The notes under the pieces: generated by a model
What the model was told of the DNA's origin: nothing
The model's database searches: none
What the model saw: only the letters and a program-made list of their open reading frames with translations
NCBI RefSeq assembly: GCF_047511655.1
Contig: NC_133387.1
Coordinates: 142,532,853-142,596,852, forward strand
Direction of reading: 5' to 3'
Length of the DNA: 64,000 bases
From: Castor canadensis
Lineage: Eukaryota; Chordata; Mammalia; Rodentia; Castoridae
Made by a program: the position numbers and the translations under genes
Shown here: positions 1-46,562 of the stretch, in pieces
Position numbering within the stretch: the first letter of the stretch is position 1
Layout of the letters: each line of letters starts with the position of its first letter

Positions 1-899
1 AAAAAAGTGAATGATTTCTACAATGAACATTACAAAACACTGATGAAATAAATTGAAGAGGACACATCAAAAAACACAAAGACATCCTGTGTTCATGGAT
101 TGGAAGAATTAGTACTGCTAAAATGTCCATGCTACCCAAAGCAAACTACAGACTCAATGCAACTTCTATCAAAATACCAGTGACATTCTCCACAGAATGA
201 GAAGAAAACAACAAACAGGAAATTCATATGAAATTACAAAAGACATCAAATAGCCAAGGCAATCTTAATCAAGAAGAACAAAGCTGGAGGCTTTACTATA
301 CCTGACTTTAAAACATCCTACAAAGCTATAGTAACCAAAACAACACGGTACCGGTCTAAAAACAGACACATAGACCAAAGCAACAGAACAGAGAGCCCAG
401 AAATAAACCCATGTGCCTATAGCAAATTGATTTTCAACAAATGTAATATATATATATATATGTATATATATATGTATGTATATATATATATACATACATA
501 TATATATATGTATGTATCAGGATAAAGAAAGTCTCTTCAATAAATGGTGCAGGAAAAACTGGAACTCCATATGCATAAGAAAGAAACTATACTCTTCTCT
601 CTCATTACATAAAATAAAAACTGACTTCAAGTGGATCAAAGACAAATACAACAGCTACAACTTTGGAACCACTACATGAAAATATAAGGAAAATGCTTTA
701 GGATATTGGTATAGACAATATTTTTTGGAATGTGGTCTCAAAAGCACAGGCAACAGAAGCAAAAATTGATAAATGGGACTAAATCAAACTAAAAAGCTTC
801 CATATAATAGCAAAGGAACAATCAATACAGTGAAAAGACAACCCACAGAATGGGAGAAAATATTTACAAACTACTCATCTGGTAAGAAATTAATTTCCA
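1..899 (+). mobile_element. Old L1 ORF2 fragment (left part of element A)
   Basis: Decayed LINE-1 ORF2: 'tggattggaagaattag' and 'gctggaggctttactatacc', then 'aaatgggactaaatcaaact' and 'agaatgggagaaaatattta' follow the order of the ORF2 C-terminal half. Many stops and indels are present. It is broken at 899 by a younger insertion and resumes at 4863. Confidence 0.88.
445..517. repeat. TA-rich microsatellite with a 46-bp perfect palindrome
   Basis: Alternating TA/TG tract inside the old L1. Positions 463-508 are exactly self-complementary, centred on TATATATATATA between TATGTATG and its complement CATACATA. Confidence 0.9.
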
Positions 900-2845
900 A
901 GTTCCTCAACATTATAAAAGCTATATATGACAAACCTACAGCCAGCATTATACTTAACGGAGAAAAATTAAAACCGTTCCCTCTAAAATCAGGAACCAGA
1001 CAAGGATGCCCACTATCTCCACTCCTATTCAACATAGTACTGGAATTCCTAGCCAGAGCAATTAGGCAAGAAGAAGGAATAAAAGGAATACAAATAGGTA
1101 AAGAAACTGTCAAAATATCCCTATTTGCAGACGACATGATCCTATACCTTAAAGACCCAAAAAACTCTACTCAGAAGCTTCTAGACATCATCAATAGCTA
1201 TAGCAAAGTAGCAGGATATAAAATCAACATAGAAAAATCATTAGCATTTCTATACACTAACAATGAGCAAACGGAAAAAGAATGTATGAAAACAATTCCA
1301 TTTACAATAGCCTCAAAAAAAATCAAATACCTAGGTGTAAACCTAACAAAAGATGTGAAAGACCTCTACAAGGAAAACTATACACTTCTGAAGAAAGAGA
1401 TTGAGGAAGACTATAGAAAGTGGAGAGATCTCCCATGCTCATGGATTGGTAGAATCAACATAGTAAAAATGTCGATACTCCCCAAAGTAATCTACATGTT
1501 TAATGCAATTCCCATCAAAATTCCAATGACATTCATTAAAGAGATTGAAAAATCTACTGTGAAATTTATATGGAAACACAAGAGGCCACGAATAGCCAAG
1601 GCAATACTCAGTCAAAAGAACAATGCAGGAGGTATCACAATACCTGACTTCAAACTATATTACAAAGCAATAACAATAAAAACAGCATGGTACTGGCACA
1701 AAAACAGACATGAAGACCAGTGGAACAGAATAGAGGATCCAGATATGAAGCCACACAACTATGAGCAACTTATCTTTGACAAAGGAGCTAAAAATATACG
1801 ATGGAGAAATAGCAGCCTCTTCAACAAAAACTGCTGGGAAAACTGGTTAGCAGTCTGCAAAAAACTGAAACTAGATCCATGTATATCACCCTATACCAAG
1901 ATTAACTCAAAATGGATCAAGGATCTGAATATCAGACCCCAAACTCTTAAGTTGATACAAGAAAGAGTAGGAAATACTCTGGAGTTAGTAGGTATAGGTA
2001 AGAACTTTCTCAATGAAACCCCAGCAGCACAGCAACTAAGAGATAGCATAGATAAATGGGACCTCATAAAACTAAAAAGCTTCTGTTCATCAAAAGAAAT
2101 GGTCTCTAAACTGAAGAGAACACCCACAGAGTGGGAGAAAATATTTGCCAATTATACATCAGACAAAGGACTGATAACCAGAATATACAGGGAGCTTAAA
2201 AAACTAAATTCTCCCAAAACTAATGAACCAATAAAGAAATGGGCATGTGAACTAAACAGAACTTTCTCAAAAGAAGAAATTCAAATGGCCAGAAAATACA
2301 TGAAAAAATGCTCACCATCTCTAGCAATAAAGGAAATGCAAATTAAAACCACACTAAGATTCCACCTCACCCCTGTTAGAATAGCCATCATCAGCAACAC
2401 CACCAACAACAGGTGTTGGCGAGGATGCGGGGAAAAAGGAACCCTTTTACACTGTTGGTGGGAATGTAGACTAGTACAACCACTCTGGAAAAAAATTTGG
2501 AGGCTACTTAAAAAGCTGGACATCGATCTACCATTTGATCCAGCAATACCACTCTTGGGGATATACCCAAAAGACTGTTACTCCAGAGGCACCTGCACAT
2601 CCATGTTTATTGCGGCACTATTCACAATAGCCAAGTTATGGAAACAGCCAAGATGTCCCAGCACTGACGAATGGATTAAGAAAATGTGGTATCTATACAC
2701 AATGGAATTTTATGCAGCCATGAAGAAGAACGAAATGTTATCATTCGCTGGTAAATGGATGGAATTGGAGAACATCATTCTGAGTGAGGTTAGCCTGGCT
2801 CAAAAGACCAAAAATCGTATGTTCTCCCTCATATGTGGACATTAG
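773..2845 (+). pseudogene. Chimeric L1 ORF2 open frame, 690 codons
   Basis: Not a host gene. Residues 1 to about 42 come from the old L1 ([19 protein letters not shown]). The frame then passes at about 900 into a younger L1 ORF2 that starts inside the reverse-transcriptase domain ([15 protein letters not shown]). The catalytic FADD box is at residues 118-121, and the C-terminal Cys/His motif [18 protein letters not shown] is near 548-565. The frame ends ...FSLICGH and a TAG stop. The PTEWEKIF segment therefore occurs twice, once out of order at the start and once in its proper place, which proves fusion of two elements. The endonuclease domain and the N-terminal part of RT, including the first catalytic Asp, are missing, so it cannot be an autonomous transposase. 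The long intact frame shows that the younger L1 is recent. Confidence 0.92.
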
Positions 2846-10587: not shown

Positions 10588-10681
10588 TTATTTATTTATT
10601 TTGGTGGCACTGGGGTTTGAACTCAGGGCCTCATGCTTACAAGCAGCTGCTCTTACTCATTGAGCCACTCCACCAGCCCTT
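10588..10681 (-). mobile_element. ID-like SINE
   Basis: Antisense: 'ggtggcactggggtttgaac', 'cattgagccactccaccagc'. Confidence 0.88.
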
Positions 10682-22629: not shown

Positions 22630-24362
22630 ATACATGTTCTTCACCCTGTACGAGTACCAGCTCAAAGTGGATTAAGGACCTTAATGTCAGACCTGAAACC
22701 TTGAAGCTAGTGCAGGAAAGAGCAGGGAATACACTGGAAACAATAGGCATAGGAAAGGACTTCCTCAGTAGAACTCAAGTGGCTCAGCAACTAAGAGAAA
22801 GGATTGACAAATGGGACTACATGAAATTAAAAAGCTTTAGCACAATAAAAGAAATGATCTCTAAATTGAAGAGACCACCCACAGAATGGGAGAAAATCTT
22901 TGCTAGCTATACATCAGACAAGGGACTGCTAACCAGAATATACAGGGAGCTCAAAAAACTAAACTCCCATACTTATCTGGCAGGGGAGATACCATGATCA
23001 TGAAGGTGGTTTTCCCAGGGCGAGGCTTATCCATTGCACTCTGTGTGCTGACCCCTGCGATTTCTCTAAATGTGGGAAACTCGACTGCATAATTTGTAGT
23101 AGTGGGGGACTGCATTTGCGCTCTCCCCTTTAAAACAAAAAAAAAAAGAAAACAAAAAACTAAACTCCCCAAAAATTAATGACCCAATGAAGAAATGGGC
23201 AAATGAACTGAACAGAGCCTTTTCAAAGGAAGAAGTCCAAATGACTAAAATACACATGAAAAAATGTTCAACATCTCTGGCCACAAAGGAAATGCAAATC
23301 AAAACCACACTAAGATTCCACATCACTCCAGTTAGAATAGCTGTCATCAAAAACACCACCAACAAATGTTGGCAAAGATGAGGGGGAAAAGGAACCCTCA
23401 TACACTGCTGGTGGGAATGCAAGCTAGTACAACCACTCTGGAAAACAATAAAGAGGCTTCTTAAAAATCTAAAAATAGAACTGCTCCATGATCCAGCAAT
23501 CTCACTCCTAGGGATATACCCAAAGGATTGTGAGTCAGCTTACAACAAAGGCACCTGCACACCCACATTTATTGCAGCACTATACACAATAGCCAAGCTA
23601 TGAAAACAGCCAAGATGCCCCACTACTGATGAATGGATTGAGAAAATGTAGTATTTATACACCATGGAATTTTACTCAGCCATGAAGAAGAATGAAATTT
23701 TGTCCTTCACAGGTAAATGGATGGAACTGGAGAATATCATCTTAAGTGAAGTTAGCCAAGCTCAGAAGGCCAAAAATCACATGTTCTCCCTCATATGCGG
23801 AAAATAGACCTAAAACAAATGCAGCAATGTTATGGGACATGGGTCACACCAAGGGGAGGTGGAGCATGGGAGGGATAGGGCAAGGGAAGGAAGCCTAAAA
23901 CTTGACTGTGGTTGATGTGCTCTCTGTACAGAAATGAATATAGAAATCTTAAACTGGTGGGGGCCACTATGGCAAGGGGACTAGGAAGGAGTGAAGAAGA
24001 TTAGAGGAGATGAACCAATTGGGGGTTGTAATACACATATGCATGGAAACAACACAAGGAAACTCCTGGGTAGCTACCTTTATCTCAAACTAGCAGAGCA
24101 GGAGGGCAGAACAGGGTCTGGGGTGGAGGCACCAGTGGGAGCGGGGAGGAGGTGGGGAAAGGGGTAGGAGGATGAATACAGTGCAAATAATGTGTGTACA
24201 CATGTATGTAGATGCAAAAATGATACCTTTTGAAACTGCTCCAGGAATGGGGGGCCAGGAATGAAGGAGAGAGGCGGAGGGGGTGAATCCAGGTATGATA
24301 TATTTGATACATTGTAAGAACCTTTGTAAATGCTACAATGTACCCCCACCCAGCACAACAAT

Positions 24363-28534: not shown

Positions 28535-28754
28535 TTGTTTTTTTCTTTGGTGGACCTGGAGTTTGAACTCAGGGTTTACATTTGCTGGGCAGGTGCTCTA
28601 CCACTTCAGCCACTCCGCCAGCCCTTTTTTGTGCTGGGTATTTTGAGATAGGGTGTCAAGAACTATTTGCCTGGGCTGGCTTTGAACTGTGATCCTCCTG
28701 ATCTCTGCCTCCTGAGTAGCTAGGATTACAGGCGTGAGCCACCAGCACCGGGCG
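28535..28754 (-). mobile_element. ID + B1 composite SINE with target-site duplication
   Basis: 'ggacctggagtttgaactca' to 'gtgagccaccagcaccgggc', a well-preserved copy. Flanks 'tataaagaagttttt' (from 28517) and 'tataaagcagttttg' (from 28755) are duplications with one internal mismatch. Confidence 0.92.
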
Positions 28755-36335: not shown

Positions 36336-36517
36336 TCTTTTCTCTTAATTTTTCTTTAGCCATGGTACTGGCTTTTGTGCTCAGTTATGCTGCAAGGGCA
36401 TAGTTTTGCTCTTCCTCCAGAGAAAATCCACAAACTACTCCCTTAGGATTGCAGGTAGAATAAAAACAAAAGAAGGCAAGAGTTGTCTAAATGTAAAGTG
36501 CTGGAAAAATCCAACAT

Positions 36518-36523
36518 TTTATT
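36518..36523 (-). promoter_or_regulatory. ONECUT1: Candidate distal poly(A) signal AATAAA of ONECUT1
   Basis: The plus strand shows TTTATT, so the transcript has GTGAATAAAATG. About 20-60 nt further on the transcript becomes T/GT-rich (CTTCTTTTGTTTTTATTC), a suitable downstream element. Cleavage would fall near 36500. It marks the left end of the repeat-free block; a SINE follows at 36240-36335. Confidence 0.5.
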
Positions 36524-37078
36524 CACTACATTTCGGTGACTACATAAATGCAGAAACATCTTAACACTGAGAAGCGTGATGGTGTATCACCACTTGCTTT
36601 TTTTTTCTTTTTTTCTTTTTTGCTTAGCAAACACAGCAGATGATATTGCACGGCATAAAGTGAGAACAGTAGCGAAGGCTTAAAAAAAAATGAAAGAAAC
36701 CTTAATGCAGTACAGGAGATACTCAAAACAACCGAATAATGCCTAATGCATTACACTTCTTGTTGCTACACACGAAAGTACAGGAGAAGCATTGGACATA
36801 GAGAAAGAGAGAAAGACAAAATATCAGCAAACAACCATAGCTGGGTACAGTAATCATTTCGTCTGCAATGTTAATGCAATGTAGAAACTAGCACTGTTTT
36901 CTCCTTGATAAAGAAAATGACAGCAATATTTATCTTTTCTCAAAAATCTTCTAAGCCCCTCATGGTTAGGTCTTTAATTATTTAATTATTCATTTATTTT
37001 TTTTTGTTGGGTTTTTTTTTTTTCACTGCTAAGGAAGAACTCCCTCTGCTCTTGGAAGATTTTCTACTCTACTGATCT

Positions 37079-37115
37079 TTTATTTATTATTATTATTATT
37101 ATTATTAATTATTTA
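37079..37115. repeat. (TTA)n within the ONECUT1 3' UTR
   Basis: About eight ATT units; the transcript strand reads AATAATAAT and includes AATAAA hexamers. Confidence 0.85.
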
Positions 37116-39443
37116 CCTGATGATTGTCTTAGGCACCCTCCTTACATAATAAACCATCAAGCTAACTTGAACAGGGAAACTGAGTCATACTCGAACAATA
37201 TCTATGGTCAAAGGTATACTGGAAATAGAAAGGGGAGGGGACAGGTCTACGTGAATGTGTGACAGATGGGCGAATTCAGACAGGACAGTAAACACGGGAA
37301 GATATGAAGACAACTACTGAAGCAAGTGGAAGACAGTGTTTTAAAGTTTATTATTATTATTTTTTAAAAAATATTTGTCACTTGGTTCAGACAGCAAATC
37401 TAAAATGAGACCACAATGATTATGTAATAAATGCAGAGCATACCACAAAAAAGAAAAAAATCAAGACTAACACAGAAATAGAAAATGTGATCTTGGAATA
37501 CAACTCTGCTCAAAGCTTCATTGCTGGTCCTCTAACTCACTGTCCTCAAACTGTTTCCCTTGTCTTTCTAGGACTGACTGCCCAGCATTTGTATTAAACA
37601 CAAGCAACTTATCAAGGCTTATCAACAGAGCACTGAATGATTCTGCAACTCAGAGCAGATTTATTGCCCTATTAAAATACATAATCAGTATAAAAATGTC
37701 CCTAAGAAAATGCAACTTTGAAGTCTAAATCTAAGCCCACCATTTCCTTCCCCACCCCAAACATACCTGCAAATGAAAATAAGGTAAAATGTTTGTGAGG
37801 AGAGGGAAAGTATGTACATCTGTGAGTTTAGGACATGTCCTTAGAGCAACTTCTTTCAATAAAATGAAATGAAATAGTGGCTGGCTCTTCTGGGGATGGC
37901 CCTAGGCATCTAAAATTCTGTGAGTGCTAATCCAATGCGCTGGCACTGCCTTGGTTAAGGGGCCTGTGGCAAGGATCGTCTCTAGTGTGAAGAACAAAAC
38001 TAGCTGGAAGATGAAGAGTGAGAAGAGAAAAACTCAAATAGCTCTGGGGTGCGCTCCCCTGGCCCCTTACTCCTGACATTTATAGAGAATCTGCCCGTTT
38101 TGGTAGGGAGGGGGAGGGGACAACCGTGGGTAGCAGATTCCAAAAAACAGATGTGGAGAGGAATGTGTAACTTGGATGAGACACTTTTCTCAAATTAGAA
38201 TGATAAGTGAGGCCAAGCAATGATGCTTTGCTTCTCCATGGGCTGGGCCCCAGCCATGACTTTTCTTTTAAGGGCAGGAAGCCACTTTGCTCTCAGCCTG
38301 GCAAAAAGGAATGGTGTCTCCAGGCCCTGCTCACTGCCTGGGAGCACAGAAACTCTGGGAAACTTAGAGGATTTCCAAATTCAAGTTAGCTTGTCTTTTT
38401 TTTTTTTTTTTTTTAAAACACTCTTTACTTCTCATACCCGTGAGAATGGTTAACCAAAAAATAAAAATAAAAAAGTAGCAAAGTATCTCACAAATGCCGG
38501 TGCTTTGAAACATTAAAAAAGTCTTAAATTCTTTGGAATTTCAGGTCTTACCTGCAAAGTAATTTTTTTTTCAAAATAAAATTAATAAATTAAAGGGAAA
38601 TACAAATAATGCCTTTCTTCGTTCTAAATGACAGAAAGGATTACCTTGAAATACTTGTTTTGGCATGAACAGGTGTTTGAAGGGGTCTGGCAGTGTTCCC
38701 ACACACATCCAAAGGCCTGCCAAGAGGAGCTGAAGGCTCACCCTGCAGGTAAGAGGAGCTTTTGCCTTCAGTTTATCTTAGCATTGAGAACAAAAAGATT
38801 GTAACATAAAGCTTTGGCCATTTCGATTCTACTATATACATTTTAAAAAACTACACAGTCATAAATTAAAACAGTGATTAAATAAGCTCATATAAAATGT
38901 AATTAAATTAAAAAAAATCACAGCACATTATAGAGAAAAATAGGAACCAGTTTCACAAAAAAGAGATTATAGATATATATATAGATATATATATATATTT
39001 TTTTACCCTGTGGAAACAAATTTTTTATGAAACACAAAACCTTCATAAGTAACCCTCAAAATGAAAATATTTCTTAATCCATTCTTGCGTTTCTACACAA
39101 CCCTTAACCCACCTGGGGAAAATTTCCAGAAATTAAGTCTTCCTTGAGCAACAGAGCAGTTCTGCCAAGAAAATAAACCCCAAACCAAAGAGGGAGGGGA
39201 GGGAACATCCCAACATACAAACTACAAAATAAATAAGAATTATAAAGTTTTTTTTCCAAAGTAACCTTAACAATTATCAAACTAGTAAGTTCTGCCTTAT
39301 CACATAGACTCTCTATAGAACATAACCCTAAAACTTTATTACTATGAGGTATTTGGAGAAATTGGTAAAAGTGTTGCACGGCCTGCCTGGGGAAGGGACC
39401 CAGTAAAGTGGGGAGGACCTTGAGAAGGAGCAAGGAGGAGGAG

Positions 39444-40497
39444 CTTTGGTTTATCAGCAAGAAATTGGGGGGAAAAGTATCCTTTGGTATCAAAGAAAGT
39501 TTCATTGCATGGTTGCACGGAAAAAGCACCACGGTGAATAATTATTCCTTTTTTTTTTTTTTTCATTAGTGGCCTTTCTAAGAGGCTGAGGTATTCAAAG
39601 AGTATAAGGTGAGAGAGGTTAACAGCGGTTTAACACTTTGGTTCAAGCAAGGCACTCATCCTAGGAGTTTACAAAGTTCGCAACATGTTTGCCTAAAGAA
39701 TTACAAGAAGAACTAGCAGTAATAAGAGTAGTATTTGCTAATGTTGTCGTCATTATCGTATCATTGTTAAGAATGAAGACAAGTTTACACACGGAGGAGT
39801 GAGGAGGGGGAGGAGGGGCAAGGAAAGGGTGGAGTTCCCTCTGCAGACCAAGGCCGTGCATGAAAGTATCTTTGGTATCATCAATGTGATTAAGATCACC
39901 AATGGAAATCGAGTGAGGTAGCGTCTTTGGTTCACACTAGAAATAGTAGATCTTTACACTTTTTTCTTTTGGTTTTTTTCTTTTTTTTTTTTTCCTTTTT
40001 TTTTCTTTTTTTTTTTAATATATATTTTTTACACGTGGAAGTAGCTATTTTTTACCTTCTGCTTCTTTGTCCTTACTATTCAGGAAGTAGTTACCAAATG
40101 TAGTGTAAAGCTAACCACACCACAATAAGCCAGAAGGCCAATGCATTTCAAAACAGCCTTTGGGATTTGAATGCACCCTAAACAACTAGATAGAAAAAGG
40201 AGAAGTGCTTTCTCTTTGTTTGCTAAATGCATAGTTTTTCATCCTTTATGTACAAAGAAGGGAAGATCTTTCTTAGGGAAAATGCCTTTATATAGGACTC
40301 TTTGGTATAGCAAAAGTTTGCATTTAACCTGCAAAGTTGGGGTGTTCACCTGGGGTTGTGATGGGGTGGAATGAATCCAAATGTCTCATAGTGCTTTTAT
40401 ATTGTCCTGGAAAAATAATTAGGTTTTTAGGGAGGACACAATAAGTGACATGTTCAGTTAGAACGTCTGTTCCCCACACATTTTCTTTGGTCTTTGG
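39444..40497 (-). promoter_or_regulatory. ONECUT1: Cluster of eight miR-9 seed-match sites in the ONECUT1 3' UTR
   Basis: Read on the minus strand, miR-9-5p targets have the core ACCAAAG, with A added for an 8-mer (ACCAAAGA). 8-mers lie at 39869-39876, 39924-39931, 40299-40306 and 40484-40491. 7-mer-m8 sites lie at 39444-39450, 39482-39488 and 39636-39642. A 7-mer-A1 site lies at 40491-40497, sharing one base with the neighbouring 8-mer. A 7-mer-m8 match for miR-124 (GTGCCTT) lies at 39649-39655, beside one miR-9 site. Isolated further miR-9 matches are an 8-mer at 41146-41153 and a 7-mer-A1 at 38530-38536. The matches are seen directly; that they act in vivo is inferred from the known miR-9/Onecut relationship. 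Confidence 0.75.
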
Positions 40498-42600
40498 AGT
40501 CTATTCCAGGTGCATCCAGGGACTGGAATCCTCATTTCCTGACATCCAGAACTCTTTTATCTGAACACTAACTGAAGTGTGGGCTTTTGGAGCATCCAGA
40601 CTTCATACCTCCTGGTCCTCTTTCAGGAAAATTTCCAGGTATGAGAGGACTTGAATGATTTATGACCAAAACGAGACTAACTTCCATTCTACCAAAAACA
40701 AACAAAAAAACCCCCCAAAAAACAGAAAAAGGTATTGTTTGAAGTGCAGTTTTGTAATTAACACGAAAAGTATGCAGATGAAAAAGATAATGTTTTAGGG
40801 AATTTTTGCTACAGGATTGAGAAATAATGAGTGAACAAATGACACATGATCTGCTCTGTTGAATGTGGTAGGTCACAAAACAGGACCATGAGTCAATGCT
40901 ACATAAACGTGCCAGTTTAGAAGCAAACAGAGAATCAGTCATACATGATGTGATAAGTGGATTGCTTGTGAGAGACTGAGCTTATCCATTAGGTCTCTAA
41001 AAAGCAAAGGTCATGAGTATGATTAAACAGTCAAGTAAAAAAATTGCGTTTCAGGCTCTGATTTGTGCATCTGTTTATGAGAAAATACATTTCTAGGCCC
41101 TGAAATTGCATAATGGAGTCAAATTCATTGCTGGTATGAAAACCATCTTTGGTGTTAGCAAGTAGGATAACTGGTTATTTTTCAAAGAAACCCTTACAGT
41201 GGGATATATTTAAAATGTAGTAAGAGTCTTTGAGACTGTGCCTACACAGAATCAAAATAATTGATTGAAAATACAGAATGTATTGGTTTATTTTTTTGGG
41301 GGGGAGGTAATACAGTAAAAACAAAGCAAAAAAATGTGGTCATCTAAATTTAATTTTTGTCTTTCCTGGAGAATTGAAATTTGGTAAGATTGTGTGTAGA
41401 CACAGCTTGAATTTCCCTGCATTTTAAATCCTCTTCTTTTAAATAAGTAAGGCTTTCCCCCCTCCTAAATTACAAATACATTATACCCAACACCCTCCAC
41501 TTGTGGAGAGAGAGAAAATGTTAACCATTCTTTCCTTTTTGTTTATGTCATTGATAAGATTATATTTAGCACATCTTACAAGGTGGCCATTTAAACTGTC
41601 TCTTAATAGCTGGACTATAATTGTGCCATATTTAGAAGGGAAAAACTTTAAGCTGAAATTCTGGATAAAATTTTAAAAAGTACTAAGACAAAGTATGTCA
41701 AGGTGAATGTAGTGTTTCATTGAAGGAGAGGTATCTGTTGGTTTCCCTTTCTCAATCTACAGGAGACATGGCGGACAGATGGACAGATAGCTTGGTTTAG
41801 CTTCACCTCTCTTGGTGCCTGCCAATTCTAGCCCAATTTAAGATGCTGAGATTTGATTCTAAGGAGTTAGGTTTTGTGCAAGATTGATTTTCGTTTTTCC
41901 TTTGGCATTTTAGTGAATCTAATAAACAGTTTATTATCAGGATAACTTTTAGTTTTCTAGTTTTAGTTAGGTGTGGTAATAATTAAGAGTATCTAATTCT
42001 TTACTGAATGGTACAGCAGGCACCATTTGCCTAAATTGCAACCCAATTGAATTGAAAAAGATGCTTGTGGGAATCAAGCGAGTCACTGGGATGTAATTAG
42101 TGTTTTATTATTTTTTTCTTGATTTATACAGCCCCAGTTAAGTGATTTGGGAAAATAGAGATTTAAAATTTTGTTTTGGAAGTCCAGGTCTAGTTTTTCT
42201 TATCTGTCCCTGTTAGAGAGGGGATTACATGTTATAAAAGTTCCAGCTTCATGCAATAGCAAGAAAGAATGTAGTATAATTTGGAGGGCATTCTTAGTGA
42301 AATAAATCGCTTAATACCAATGGATCAGAAAGTCCTGCGTTTCACTAGAACTCTGGTTTTCCCTATACAGTTTCACCAATTCTACCATTTTCCAGTAGCA
42401 CCTGCTGTTTGATTGACGGCCAACTCAAAAATGTCTAGGATTGGCAGTAAAAATCAATTGATTACTTTTTAGGATGGCTATAAAATATGGAACAATGAAT
42501 TTTAATAATAATGTTGGTTTGGTCATTTTGCAAAGTGTTTTAAAAAGGTATTTAGTACCAAATGCATAAAATGAATTTAAGCCAAAATTAACCTAAGTTC

Positions 42601-42606
42601 TTTATT
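42601..42606 (-). promoter_or_regulatory. ONECUT1: Candidate proximal poly(A) signal AATAAA of ONECUT1
   Basis: The transcript reads ACCCAATAAAGAACTTAGG followed by GGTTAATTTTGG, moderately GT-rich. Use of this signal would give a UTR of about 1.27 kb that keeps only the proximal miR-9 sites. A further AATAAA on the same strand is at 41930-41935. Hexamer evidence only. Confidence 0.3.
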
Positions 42607-43021
42607 GGGTGGTCTTTTATTTAAAAATATCACTTTAAACAAATATTCTAATTTAGTTCCCTGCCCTGTTAGACTTAGTTTTCTAGTGTACTAGTGGGGT
42701 CCTACTTTGGAAGGATCCCCAGATTTTCTCAGCTATGAACAGATTATGCATCATGTCTATTTCTTGATGTAAGTGACATTTATGAATCCTGAAAAGGTGT
42801 GTGCATCTAAACATGTGTATCTGTGCATTTGTCTTGTATCGACCTCTTTGCCATGATATTAATTGCTTCCCTGAAGCTACATTCTTTCTTGCCAGTTCTG
42901 AAAACTCATATTTCAAATGCTCCAAAAGTCATAAATAATAGTCATGGATCTATGTGGCATGTGTATTACAGCTAGATCAGTTCATACGTATAACTTTACA
43001 TAGTATCTTGTGTAAAAATAG

Positions 43022-43717
43022 CTTTGGTTATTAAAATCATTGCAATAAAATACCTGCACTATAATATTAAGTGTGTTCTTTGGTACCTAGGTGATTTTTT
43101 TTAAATGGATGGGCTCTTGTGTCATTTCTTAAAAAATATCTGAACATTCCTTAACAAACAAAGAGAATGCACTGGTTTAGGTGTCATTCAAATTTTCTTT
43201 GCTGGGTTTGAATCTGCATTTAGGTTGCTGGCCTGGCAGGTTCAAACTCTAGGCTAGACGAGCAAAATCACACTCCTAATCCAACAAATTTAGACAACCC
43301 CACGCCATGTTGGTCGTACTCCTATAGCACAACCCTTCCTGAAGACCAGCCCTGCCTAAGTCCCTAACCACTGGCGGTGTGTGTGTGTGTGTGTGTGTGT
43401 GTGTGCACGTGTGCACATGTGTGTGTGTGTACACATGCACATGCACTCACACGTGGTACTGAGACACCATACACCTTTATGGTGTGGTGGAACAGGTGAG
43501 AAAGTTTGATCTTAAAAGATGTCCACTCGATGGTTCAAAATCACTGTGCTCCAAGCCGCTAACCAGCCAAGCACAGCAAGAATGATCGCAGATTGAAGAT
43601 GTGAGATCCAGTGGGTTTCCCGCTCCTAATTCTTTTTGCCAAGTTGTTGCCCTGCTGAAGAGTGGGTCTCAGAACAAAGTCAGAATGCAGGTGAGCTTAA
43701 GTCTTTGGTTTCTTTGG
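43022..43717 (-). promoter_or_regulatory. ONECUT1: Proximal miR-9 seed-match cluster near the ONECUT1 stop
   Basis: On the transcript strand there are 8-mers ACCAAAGA at 43077-43084 and 43702-43709, a 7-mer-m8 at 43022-43028 and a 7-mer-A1 at 43711-43717. The site at 43022 extends to TAACCAAAG, pairing with miR-9 bases 2-10. The last coding codons also contain ACCAAAG (43853-43859) and CCAAAGA occurs in the homeodomain (44008-44014); those two are coding and may be coincidental. These proximal sites would be kept even in a short-UTR isoform. Confidence 0.7.
43378..43438. repeat. (TG)n within the ONECUT1 3' UTR
   Basis: Interrupted TG repeat with GCACGTGTGCACATG in the middle; reads as CA repeats in the transcript. 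Confidence 0.95.
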
Positions 43718-43847
43718 ACTATAAATATCACTTTTTTCTTCAAATATTTCTAAGTATAAACCTGCTATCTTGAGGTCCTGGTCTTAAATTTTTTTTTATT
43801 TTTTATTTAAAGCTTTTCCACCGAGGTTTTAGTTTGTGGTTCTTCCT

Positions 43848-44140
43848 TCATGCTTTGGTACAAGTGCTTGATGAAGAAGATGAGTTGCCTGAATTGGAGC
43901 TGCCCTCGTCCTGCCATTTGTCCAGACTTCTCCTCCTTGCATTCATGAAGAAGTTGCTGACGGTGCTCAGCTCCAACCCCAGCTGCTGGGAAATGGTGAT
44001 TTGCAATTCTTTGGATGGACGCTTGTTTTCCTTGAATATTGCATGGAGAGTTCGACGCTGGACGTCTGTGAAGACTAACCTGGGCTTTTTGGGTGTGTTG
44101 CCTCTCTCTTTCCCGTGTTCTTGCTCTTTCCTTTTACATG
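43848..44140 (-). CDS. ONECUT1: ONECUT1 (HNF6) last coding exon, partial CDS
   Basis: Reading the minus strand from 44140 gives 96 residues and a TGA stop (43848-43850). The exon starts with the last two bases of an Ala codon, then CKRKEQEHGK. A homeodomain follows at about residues 14-74 of this piece (KKPRLVFTDVQRR ... VSNFFMNARRRS), then a Ser-rich tail ending SSTCTKA. The Phe48/Met50 pair in recognition helix 3 (NFFMNARRR) is the hallmark of ONECUT homeodomains. The residues LDKWQDEGSSNSGNS and the HG..RGNTPKKPR linker fit ONECUT1 rather than ONECUT2 or 3, as I remember those proteins. ONECUT1 is a nuclear CUT-homeodomain activator of liver, biliary, pancreatic and some neuronal genes. 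The CUT domain and N-terminus are encoded upstream, outside this window. The frame is intact with no stop or frameshift, so this is the functional locus and not a processed copy; an intron precedes it. Confidence 0.97.
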
Positions 44141-44168
44141 CTGCAAAGAAACACAGAAGACATTAGAA
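44141..44168 (-). promoter_or_regulatory. ONECUT1: 3' splice site of the ONECUT1 last exon
   Basis: On the minus strand the bases before the exon read tctgtgtttctttgcag, a pyrimidine-rich tract ending in the acceptor AG (complement of 44141-44142). A branch-point-like TTCTAATG lies about 20-28 nt upstream (44161-44168). The split codon G|CA implies that exon 1 contributes one base, which agrees with the RLAACKRK junction expected in ONECUT1. Confidence 0.88.
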
Positions 44169-44566
44169 CAAATTCCCTGACGGATCTACGAGGAAGGCAG
44201 GGCCAATAGCATTTGTTAGTCATTCCTCAGAGCCTGCTTTTTGTTGGCTGATCTCTGTCTGGAGCACCATTGGGGCTGGGAGTGAAGTGACAAAAGGCAA
44301 GAGAACTGGAACAAGGGTGGGGTTCTATGTGACCGATACCTGCTCATTGTCTTAAGTAAGTCAATTAACCATCTGGGCCTCAGTCTCCTTAACTGTAGAA
44401 TGTAAGCCTCTGACTAAATGAACTGGTCACTTTGAACTTTTACTTCTCCATGTGAAAAATGAATATAAAGACGCTTATCTTGCTGGGGTCATGCTAGCGG
44501 AAGTGGTTTACAAGCACAACGTTGTTAATAGAAGGGGTTGTGGCCTCAGTAAACCACAGCCTGCTG

Positions 44567-44688
44567 CTGGGACAGTATTATTTTTATTTTTTATTTTTTG
44601 ATGGAACTGGGGTTTGAACTTTGGGCCATGTGCTTACTAGGCAGGTGCTCTACCACTTAAGCCACAACCCCAGCCTGGGACAGTATTA
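44567..44688 (-). mobile_element. ID-like SINE with a perfect 14-bp target duplication
   Basis: 'ggaactggggtttgaacttt' and 'gccacaaccccagc' flanked by ctgggacagtatta at 44567-44580 and 44675-44688. A relatively recent insertion into the ONECUT1 intron, about 430 bp upstream of the last exon. Confidence 0.93.
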
Positions 44689-46237: not shown

Positions 46238-46562
46238 TCTGAATACCGGTGGCTCACATCTATAATCCCAGCTACTTGGGAGGCTGAGATTAGGAGGATT
46301 GTGGTTCTAAGCCAGCTCAGGCAAAATAGTTCTTGAGACCCATCTCAACCAATAGCTGGTTGTGTATGGTGGTTCACACCTATCATCCCAGCTACTCTGG
46401 AAAGCATAAATAGGAGGATCATAGCTCAGGCCAGCCTAGGCAAAAGTGAGACCCTATCTCCAAAACAACAAGAGCAATAAGGGATGTAGATATGGCTCAA
46501 ACGGTAAAGTGCCTGCCTTGCAAGCTCAAAGCCCTGAGTTCAAACCCCAGTATTGCCAAAAC
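46238..46562 (+). mobile_element. B1 SINE and B1+ID composite in tandem
   Basis: 46238-46345 'ataccggtggctcacatcta'; 46355-46562 'gtatggtggttcacacctat' with 'gatatggctcaaacggtaaa'. Confidence 0.87.

Follow-up and report, generated by a model that had tools for sequence, protein, structure and literature searches.

A probable miR-9 target array in the long presumed 3' UTR of ONECUT1, with a distal core that seems older than the ONECUT paralogs

Control of human ONECUT1, ONECUT2 and ONECUT3 (OC1, OC2 and OC3) by miR-9 is already known (PMC10914762), in agreement with the preliminary description of this DNA, which had called such control of Onecut factors established. Reporters with the human OC1, OC2 and OC3 UTRs were repressed by miR-9, the mRNAs of all three genes went down with miR-9 in 293T cells, and endogenous human OC1 was lowered in these cells as monitored by Western blotting and qPCR (PMC10914762). 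In Neuro-2a cells miR-9 lowered OC2 and OC3; mouse OC1, said in the same paper to be without miR-9 sites, was unrepressed, and PAR-CLIP gave few OC1 reads. A Onecut1 3' UTR reporter, presumably of Xenopus, served as a target of miR-9 (PMC3361082), a review treats miR-9 and OC1 in chick motor neurons (PMC4284387), and Plaisance 2006 and Luxenhofer 2014 are cited elsewhere for the regulation of 3' UTRs in the ONECUT family by miR-9. The OC2 UTR spans 14,575 nt and contains up to 26 sites for miR-9; in prostate cancer cells, OC2 mRNA was described as resilient to this microRNA (PMC10356556).

The locus described here shares with PMC10914762 the gene, the microRNA, the multiple 8-mer sites and the targeting of all three family members. 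Like the OC2 UTR, the OC1 UTR is long and rich in miR-9 sites, although it has about half the length (OC2, 14.6 kb) and 14 matches versus up to 26 (PMC10356556). In the excerpts of PMC10914762 each ONECUT gene is treated apart and miR-9 alone is named, whereas the present comparison concerns site homology across the three UTRs and the let-7 and miR-124 neighbors of the sites. What is new here is the apparent homology of the distal cluster, with these neighbors, between paralogs. Among titles and abstract openings of the open-licence literature, no description of paralog-shared modules was found.

The window, by which we mean the whole 64,000-nucleotide stretch of Castor canadensis DNA analyzed, contains the last exon of OC1 (Table 1), which matched the homeodomain PF00046 (E 2.5e-11) and the HNF-6 chain 2d5v (E 1.6e-47) and ends in a TGA stop at 43848-43850. 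Together with the AATAAA 7.3 kb further on, these matches support the earlier assignment of the array to the presumed OC1 3' UTR. The presumed UTR gave 0 BLAST matches to 20 background loci (200 kb), and 36337-44577 was the longest run of the window without a match to these loci. On the minus strand, 14 miR-9 seed matches were found, seven 8-mers, four 7mer-m8 and three 7mer-A1 matches, all of which the preliminary description had placed correctly; its packing of eight sites into about 1.05 kb was likewise confirmed (39444-40498). Four of the 14 sites, two of them 8-mers, lie 130-820 nt from the stop, one lies at 2.7 kb, eight lie at 3.35-4.4 kb and one lies at 5.3 kb. A long UTR is thus not required for every site, as the first 830 nt past the stop already hold 4 of the 14. 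Since sites 40484 and 40491 share a base and sites 43702 and 43711 are one base apart, simultaneous binding of both members of either pair is hardly possible.

Table 1. Features of the OC1 locus (window positions; distances are from the OC1 stop)
Feature	Position	Strand	Remark
Coding part of the OC1 (HNF-6) last exon, including homeodomain and TGA stop	43848..44140	-	acceptor by eye
miR-9 7mer-A1 (43711) and 8-mer (43702), a close pair one base apart	43702..43718	-	+130/+139 nt
miR-9 8-mer	43077..43084	-	+764
miR-9 7mer-m8	43022..43028	-	+820
miR-9 8-mer	41146..41153	-	+2695
Overlapping miR-9 pair, one base shared: 7mer-A1 (40491) and 8-mer (40484)	40484..40498	-	
miR-9 8-mer	40299..40306	-	
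Module A: TTTCTAGTG (39935-39943), miR-9 8-mers 39924 and 39869, let-7 8-mer 39914-39921	39868..39943	-	
Module B: GAGTGCCTT (miR-124 7mer-m8, 39649-39655) and CTTGAACCAAAG (miR-9 7mer-m8)	39636..39657	-	
let-7 7mer-A1	39587..39593	-	conserved OC1/OC2
miR-29 7mer	39525..39531	-	conserved OC1/OC2
miR-9 7mer-m8	39482..39488	-	common to OC1/OC2, not found in OC3
miR-9 7mer-m8	39444..39450	-	not kept in OC2
Module C: block around let-7 7mer-A1 39345-39351	39270..39375	-	aligned in OC1, OC2, OC3
miR-9 7mer-A1	38530..38536	-	+5.3 kb
Presumed OC1 3' UTR, about 7.3 kb, putative 3' end	36501..43847	-	no BLAST match to background loci
AATAAA, likely distal poly(A) signal	36518..36523	-	+7.3 kb; putative use

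Candidate poly(A) signals were located at about +41/+48, +1.23 to 1.34 kb, +1.74, +1.91, +2.5, +3.8, +4.5, +6.2 to 6.9 and +7.3 kb. Alternative poly(A) choice might fix the number of miR-9 sites and hence the repression, a length switch in line with the preliminary description, which would add to a target array and not oppose it. A transcript ending near +1.2 to 2.6 kb would carry 4 of the 14 sites, one ending at +3.8 kb would carry 8, one ending at +4.5 kb would carry 13, and one ending at +6.2 kb or beyond would carry all 14; the reported species difference, with human OC1 repressed and mouse OC1 not (PMC10914762), would fit such a site-number effect. However, several of the candidate signals, judged by eye, are without a GT-rich downstream element, and two 8-mers are already present within 775 nt of the stop. 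We regard this switch as conceivable but doubtful.

The number of miR-9 sites was compared with chance expectation. Seven 8-mers were observed in the OC1 UTR, compared with 0.29 expected from 2000 dinucleotide shuffles (mean; highest 4) and 0.33 expected from an order-2 Markov model (Poisson P 6e-8); the 0.1 given previously is right under equal base use but too low for the real composition, which gives 0.29-0.33. For all miR-9 sites, 14 were observed versus 1.7-1.8 expected, and the shuffle maximum was 9. The 8-mer ranked first of its 168 anagrams (7 vs a mean of 0.30), and the background (20 loci, 399,110 strand-bases) held 0.18 8-mers per 7347 bases. ACCAAAG occurred 11 times versus 0.93 expected and ranked fourth of 4832 observed 7-mers, preceded only by an A run and by a CA repeat in two of its phases. 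Among 85 microRNA families, miR-9 came top in both OC1 (14 vs 1.73, P 5e-9) and OC2 (17 vs 4.79, P 1e-5). An origin by chance, base composition or a dispersed repeat might be suggested by the A-richness of both the UTR and the word, and by one 10-kb background strand that contained 13 sites of any type, with a maximum of two 8-mers on any background strand. Yet the shuffles, the anagrams and the Markov ranking all argue against it, the UTR matched none of the 20 background loci, and the 39265-39665 block was detected only once, at a search sensitivity that also missed OC2. Such an origin is extremely improbable.

BLAST of the regions downstream of OC1 and OC2 yielded two colinear blocks, one of 75% over 185 columns (E 5e-29, 121 bits) and one of 62% over 424 columns (E 1e-15, 76.8 bits), and the reversed control reached 26.8 bits at best. 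Within the blocks, 9 of the 13 seed matches were conserved versus 66 of the 562 7-mers overall (hypergeometric P 1e-6, with overlapping 7-mers treated as independent). The conserved matches were those of miR-9 (4/5), let-7 (3/3), miR-124 (1/1) and miR-29 (1/1), and those of miR-141, miR-18 and miR-17 were not conserved (0/1 each). When the flanks of all OC1 and OC2 sites were compared (238 pairs), five pairs beat the null maximum of 28.6, involving OC1 sites 39924, 39869 (with two OC2 partners), 39636 and 39482, the last of which exceeded it barely (29.0). The next pair, with site 38530, had a nominal P of 0.003, uncorrected for the 238 pairs. Of the 14 OC1 miR-9 sites, 4 were conserved in OC2 and 2 in OC3, and no OC2 partner was shown for 10.

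Modules A (let-7/miR-9), B (miR-124/miR-9) and C (let-7) were alignable in OC3 too, with their order kept, and scored there above all 40 background strands of the 20 loci; these modules came first from the site-flank comparison and were then scored against the background strands. The let-7 match 39914-39921 and the miR-9 site 39869 of module A are common to OC1, OC2 and OC3, and the 8-mer 39924 is present in OC1 and OC2 only and absent in OC3. In outline, module A reads CTACCTCACT...ACCAAAGAT. Its OC2 copy has at its end two 8-mers that are one base apart, resembling the close 'sites 7+8' of PMC10914762, and OC1 module A is without the second member of this pair. The module B motif GAGTGCCTTN{1,5}CTTGAACCAAAG had no fourth match in 2.81 Gb (reversed control, 0), and CTACCTCACTN{28,45}ACCAAAGAT had one further genome match beyond the three copies (control, 2), both motifs having been written from the three ONECUT copies themselves. 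Of the 56 OC1-OC3 flank pairs, the best reached 27.2 (nominal P 7e-4) and that of module B 21.2 (P 0.01), both below the null maximum of 28.6. With plain BLAST, the OC1 UTR had no significant match in OC3 (lowest E 0.03, outside the modules), and OC2 and OC3 shared nothing but repeat-like matches. Homology of OC3 to the distal cluster is suggested more weakly than that of OC2. Because part of the cluster is common to the three ONECUT genes, the distal core seems, from these alignments, to be older than their duplication. The 39482 region was considered as a further OC3 homolog and rejected, 4 of the 40 background strands scoring equally high.

Cooperating microRNA site pairs lie about 8-40 nt apart. 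By spacing alone, this range includes the miR-124/miR-9 pair of module B, which is 13-15 nt apart in OC1, OC2 and OC3, and the let-7/miR-9 39924 pair, which is 10-11 nt apart in OC1 and OC2; the spacing of let-7 and miR-9 39869 (45-48 nt) is just beyond it. The miR-9/9* and miR-124 set used for neuronal conversion (PMC3834235) involves the same microRNA pair as module B, which differs in that its two sites lie 13-15 nt from each other within a single mRNA family. The excess of let-7 matches in the OC1 UTR was by itself weak (3 vs 0.84, P 0.05). A let-7/miR-125/miR-9 developmental timing set in the retina was reportedly described by La Torre in 2013, and because of this set a miR-125 partner was looked for in the OC1 UTR, which differs from the set in having no miR-125 7mer-m8 and contains one 7mer-A1 at 42868. 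In a passage of PMC7961372 on this retinal let-7/miR-125/miR-9 set, retinal progenitors show a joint rise of let-7 and miR-9. ONECUT1/2 are early factors of the retina (PMC6761228).

The conserved blocks might instead be duplicated DNA enhancers beside the ONECUT genes, with the seed matches as passengers. Conserved noncoding elements are common beside developmental genes after genome duplication, and some of the conserved words correspond to no known seed, such as TTTCTAGTG, which occurs in all three paralogs and is kept in OC3 without the adjoining miR-9 site. However, of the 880 possible seeds with a match in the blocks, only ACCAAAG of miR-9 and the TACCTC (let-7) group recurred as conserved words, reaching three places, when A-runs were set aside. 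The miR-9 sites also favored the sense strand, with 14 sense versus 1 antisense in the OC1 UTR, 18 (one coding) versus 5 in 20 kb of OC2, and 4 versus 0 in 10 kb of OC3, and in each gene the blocks follow the stop codon in an unchanged order. An enhancer origin is unlikely.

Site statistics, paralog homology and the published human OC1 data (PMC10914762) give good support to the reading of the array as a miR-9 target region of the OC1 3' UTR. The explanation we prefer, and consider quite probable, is that a long OC1 3' UTR holds a genuine miR-9 target array, whose ancient distal core predates the split of OC1, OC2 and OC3 and persists in each of them. Argonaute with miR-9-5p would bind the seed matches, and OC1 mRNA and protein would fall where miR-9 is abundant, in neurons and differentiating progenitors. 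The Onecut ancestor of the three genes would already have carried, in its 3' UTR, this core, which consists of modules A, B and C with miR-9 sites beside let-7 and miR-124 sites. The OC1 UTR would be transcribed as far as the distal cluster, let-7 and miR-124 would be active at their sites, and neighboring sites may act additively or cooperatively, which would lower ONECUT output as the three microRNAs rise. No miR-9 gene was matched in the parts of the genome covered by an exact-pattern search and by a covariance-model search in which 64 of 492,122 candidates were scored.

Alternatively, the OC1 UTR could be a sponge that soaks up miR-9 and protects other targets instead of lowering ONECUT, as has been put forward for OC2 in prostate cancer cells (PMC10356556). 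Contrary to this, miR-9 lowered the OC1, OC2 and OC3 mRNAs in 293T and OC2 and OC3 in Neuro-2a (PMC10914762), the abundance of OC1 relative to miR-9 would probably not suffice, and exactly kept composite sites would be unnecessary for a sponge; we consider it highly unlikely. For a target array with an old core, the statement on mouse OC1 (PMC10914762) fits poorly, unless it reflects a short annotation, loss in mouse or a short UTR in Neuro-2a.

A more far-reaching proposal, which we put forward only tentatively, is that all vertebrate ONECUT mRNAs have one inherited let-7/miR-9/miR-124 module that is read jointly, so that they would be shut down by the joint rise of a timing microRNA and two neuronal ones. 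This module would date from about the time of the vertebrate genome duplications, would lie kilobases from the stop and would work in long-UTR mRNA only. A set of sites kept in the UTRs of three paralogs would make microRNA control datable to before the split of the gene family, and modules A and B offer exact short elements for mutation. The modules would add let-7 and miR-124 to a circuit so far described, in the excerpts cited, with miR-9, and an old core makes a sharp prediction for mouse Onecut1, the gene called devoid of miR-9 sites in PMC10914762.

The preliminary description had placed an array of miR-9 sites in the presumed ONECUT1 3' UTR, and its coordinates hold: all 14 seed matches (8-mer, 7mer-m8 or 7mer-A1) were found again, each in its place, on the minus strand and downstream of the final ONECUT1 coding exon. 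That exon was identified by a profile match to the homeodomain (PF00046), by an 80-residue match to the HNF-6 chain 2d5v and by a frame ending in STCTKA-stop (TGA, 43848-43850, minus strand). The sites lie 130, 139, 764, 820, 2695, 3350, 3357, 3542, 3917, 3972, 4206, 4360, 4398 and 5311 nt from the stop; four are proximal, and the earlier view that a UTR longer than 4 kb is required to include the array was too strong. Since the sites at 40484 and 40491 have one base in common and those at 43702 and 43711 are separated by one base, neither pair is likely to be occupied simultaneously, leaving about 12 independent positions. Two further matches in the coding part (43853, in the last codons, and 44008) and others elsewhere in the window, including an 8-mer at 28544, were left out of the 14. 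ACCAAAG at 43853-43859 (minus strand) is formed by the codons of the final residues Thr-Lys-Ala, and ONECUT2 has it at the same codons; the protein sequence accounts for it, and it is still a miR-9 match immediately before the stop. The tract downstream of the stop had no match to 20 background loci and lies within the longest match-free run of the window (36337-44577), as judged against a 200-kb background that rare repeats could escape.

The miR-9 array exceeds chance. Seven 8-mers were observed versus 0.33 expected (order-2 Markov; Poisson P 6e-8), and 2000 dinucleotide shuffles gave a mean of 0.29 and a maximum of 4; the expectation of 0.1 proposed at first is right under equal base use only and gives way to 0.29-0.33 with the actual composition. 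With all site types counted, 14 were observed versus 1.7-1.8 expected (shuffle maximum, 9). ACCAAAG ranked fourth among the 4832 observed 7-mers, the three above it being a run of A and a CA repeat in two of its phases. The background (399,110 strand-bases) held 0.18 8-mers per 7347 bases and no more than 2 in any 10-kb strand; one background 10-kb strand contained 13 miR-9 sites of all types.

Searching the animal's own genome (2.81 Gb) with the last exon of ONECUT1 recovered two relatives. That on contig C4 was matched best by ONECUT2 chains (8t0f, E 1e-44, versus 3e-38 for HNF-6); that on contig C14 encodes an ONECUT protein that resembles HNF-6 chains and ONECUT2 chains to about the same degree and is presumably ONECUT3, by exclusion. 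The 20 kb downstream of ONECUT2 contained 18 sense miR-9 sites (one coding) versus 5 antisense, and the 10 kb downstream of ONECUT3 contained 4 versus 0. The region downstream of ONECUT2 also had 11 miR-218 matches versus 3.6 expected (nominal P 0.001) and 9 miR-9-3p matches versus 3.4 (nominal P 0.009), among 85 microRNA seed families.

Two colinear blocks were shared by ONECUT1 and ONECUT2, at 39866-40047 (75% identity, E 5e-29, 121 bits) and 39270-39661 (62%, E 1e-15, 76.8 bits), versus 26.8 bits for the best reversed-sequence control. Other ONECUT1 matches outside the exon were SINE-like stretches past the AATAAA at 36518 and one CA-rich ONECUT3 match (E 0.03); the remaining weaker ONECUT1-ONECUT2 matches had E values of 0.06 or worse. 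A whole-genome DNA search with 39265-39665 found no other copy, at a sensitivity that also missed ONECUT2. Of the eight miR-9 sites in the distal cluster, five fall inside the blocks. Within them, 66 of 562 ONECUT1 7-mers were conserved in ONECUT2, as were 9 of the 13 matches to the 85 families: miR-9 at 39924, 39869, 39636 and 39482 (39444 was not conserved), let-7 at 39914, 39587 and 39345, miR-124 at 39649 and miR-29 at 39525. None of the single miR-141, miR-18 and miR-17 matches was conserved there. When all 880 possible seeds matched in the blocks were scored without a microRNA list, only ACCAAAG (4/5) and the TACCTC group (3/3) were conserved in at least three places, A-runs excluded.

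Three elements of the distal cluster could be aligned in ONECUT3, in the same order as in ONECUT1: module A (39868-39943; TTTCTAGTG, a let-7 8-mer, 45-48 nt and a miR-9 8-mer), module B (39636-39657; a miR-124 7-mer, 13-15 nt and miR-9) and module C (39270-39375; the block surrounding a let-7 7mer-A1). They scored 29.0, 20.0 and 27.5 versus at most 23.0, 17.5 and 23.5, respectively, in 40 equal-length background strands. The ONECUT1-ONECUT3 link is weaker than the ONECUT1-ONECUT2 link: plain BLAST of ONECUT1 against ONECUT3 missed the modules, and the best of 56 pairs in a flank test (nominal P 7e-4) lay under the null maximum. In ONECUT3 site 39924 was absent and no counterpart of 39482 was found. 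Genome-wide, GAGTGCCTTN{1,5}CTTGAACCAAAG had three matches, the three ONECUT genes (reversed control, 0), and CTACCTCACTN{28,45}ACCAAAGAT had four, the three ONECUT genes and one unrelated by inner sequence (reversed control, 2); because both patterns were derived from the three copies, these searches test rarity elsewhere and not the ONECUT matches. TTTCTAGTG (39935-39943, minus strand) is identical in all three genes and, to our knowledge, corresponds to no known seed; its CTAG could pair with miR-9 outside the seed beside 39924, and ONECUT3 retains TTTCTAGTG without 39924. A short inverted repeat, GTGAT...ATCAC (39886-39899, minus strand), separates the let-7 site from the miR-9 site in ONECUT1 and, by eye, in ONECUT3, and is not obvious in ONECUT2. 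The SINE-like stretches of the window, which we take to be rodent-like, are perhaps castorid.

Further features of the window
Feature	Position	Strand	Remark
AATAAA	36518-36523	-	7.3 kb downstream of ONECUT1 stop
U1 spliceosomal RNA match	22969-23130	+	full-length; gene or retrocopy; RF00003, 145 bits
Long ORF resembling LINE-1 ORF2 (reverse transcriptase)	773-2845	+	ordinary repeat; by eye
tRNA match	10602-10674	-	may be tRNA-derived SINE
tRNA match	46486-46558	+	may be tRNA-derived SINE

The miR-9 array of ONECUT1 is already known matter. In one study (PMC10914762), the top vertebrate-conserved TargetScan candidates for miR-9 include all three ONECUT genes; it gives human ONECUT1, ONECUT2 and ONECUT3 multiple miR-9 8-mers each, and describes repression by miR-9 of ONECUT reporters and endogenous human ONECUT1; mouse ONECUT1 is said there to be without miR-9 sites and was unrepressed in Neuro-2a. 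The strongest ONECUT2 PAR-CLIP signal in that study is at a close pair of sites, which is resembled here by two ONECUT2 8-mers one base apart; the first of these 8-mers is homologous to 39869. Elsewhere the ONECUT2 UTR is put at 14.6 kb and its miR-9 sites at as many as 26, with the UTR argued to be a sponge (PMC10356556), and miR-9 is tied to ONECUT1 in chick (PMC4284387) and probably in frog (PMC3361082). Modules common to the three paralogs were not described in the accessible text of the literature searched. Our genome search recovered no match to a miR-9 gene, possibly for technical reasons.

Each of the three genes, on a contig of its own, has the elements downstream in the same order, and the surrounding DNA barely aligns otherwise; most simply, judging from one genome, the shared elements would predate the split of ONECUT1, ONECUT2 and ONECUT3. 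The three genes derive from vertebrate genome duplications. These are dated to ~500 million years ago in PMC12688097. The blocks might instead be duplicated DNA enhancers beside the ONECUT genes, with the seed matches as passengers, which we consider unlikely. The retained elements are mainly miR-9, let-7 and miR-124 seed matches. A miR-9 target array in a long ONECUT1 3' UTR, with a distal core predating the paralogs, is the best explanation and in our judgment a probable one. let-7 and miR-124 would also act at the module sites. UTR length might in addition set how strongly miR-9 represses ONECUT1, as the preliminary description proposed. The simplest account is that the elements were kept by selection because they place the mRNA under microRNA control, which would imply that the UTR has long extended to this distance.
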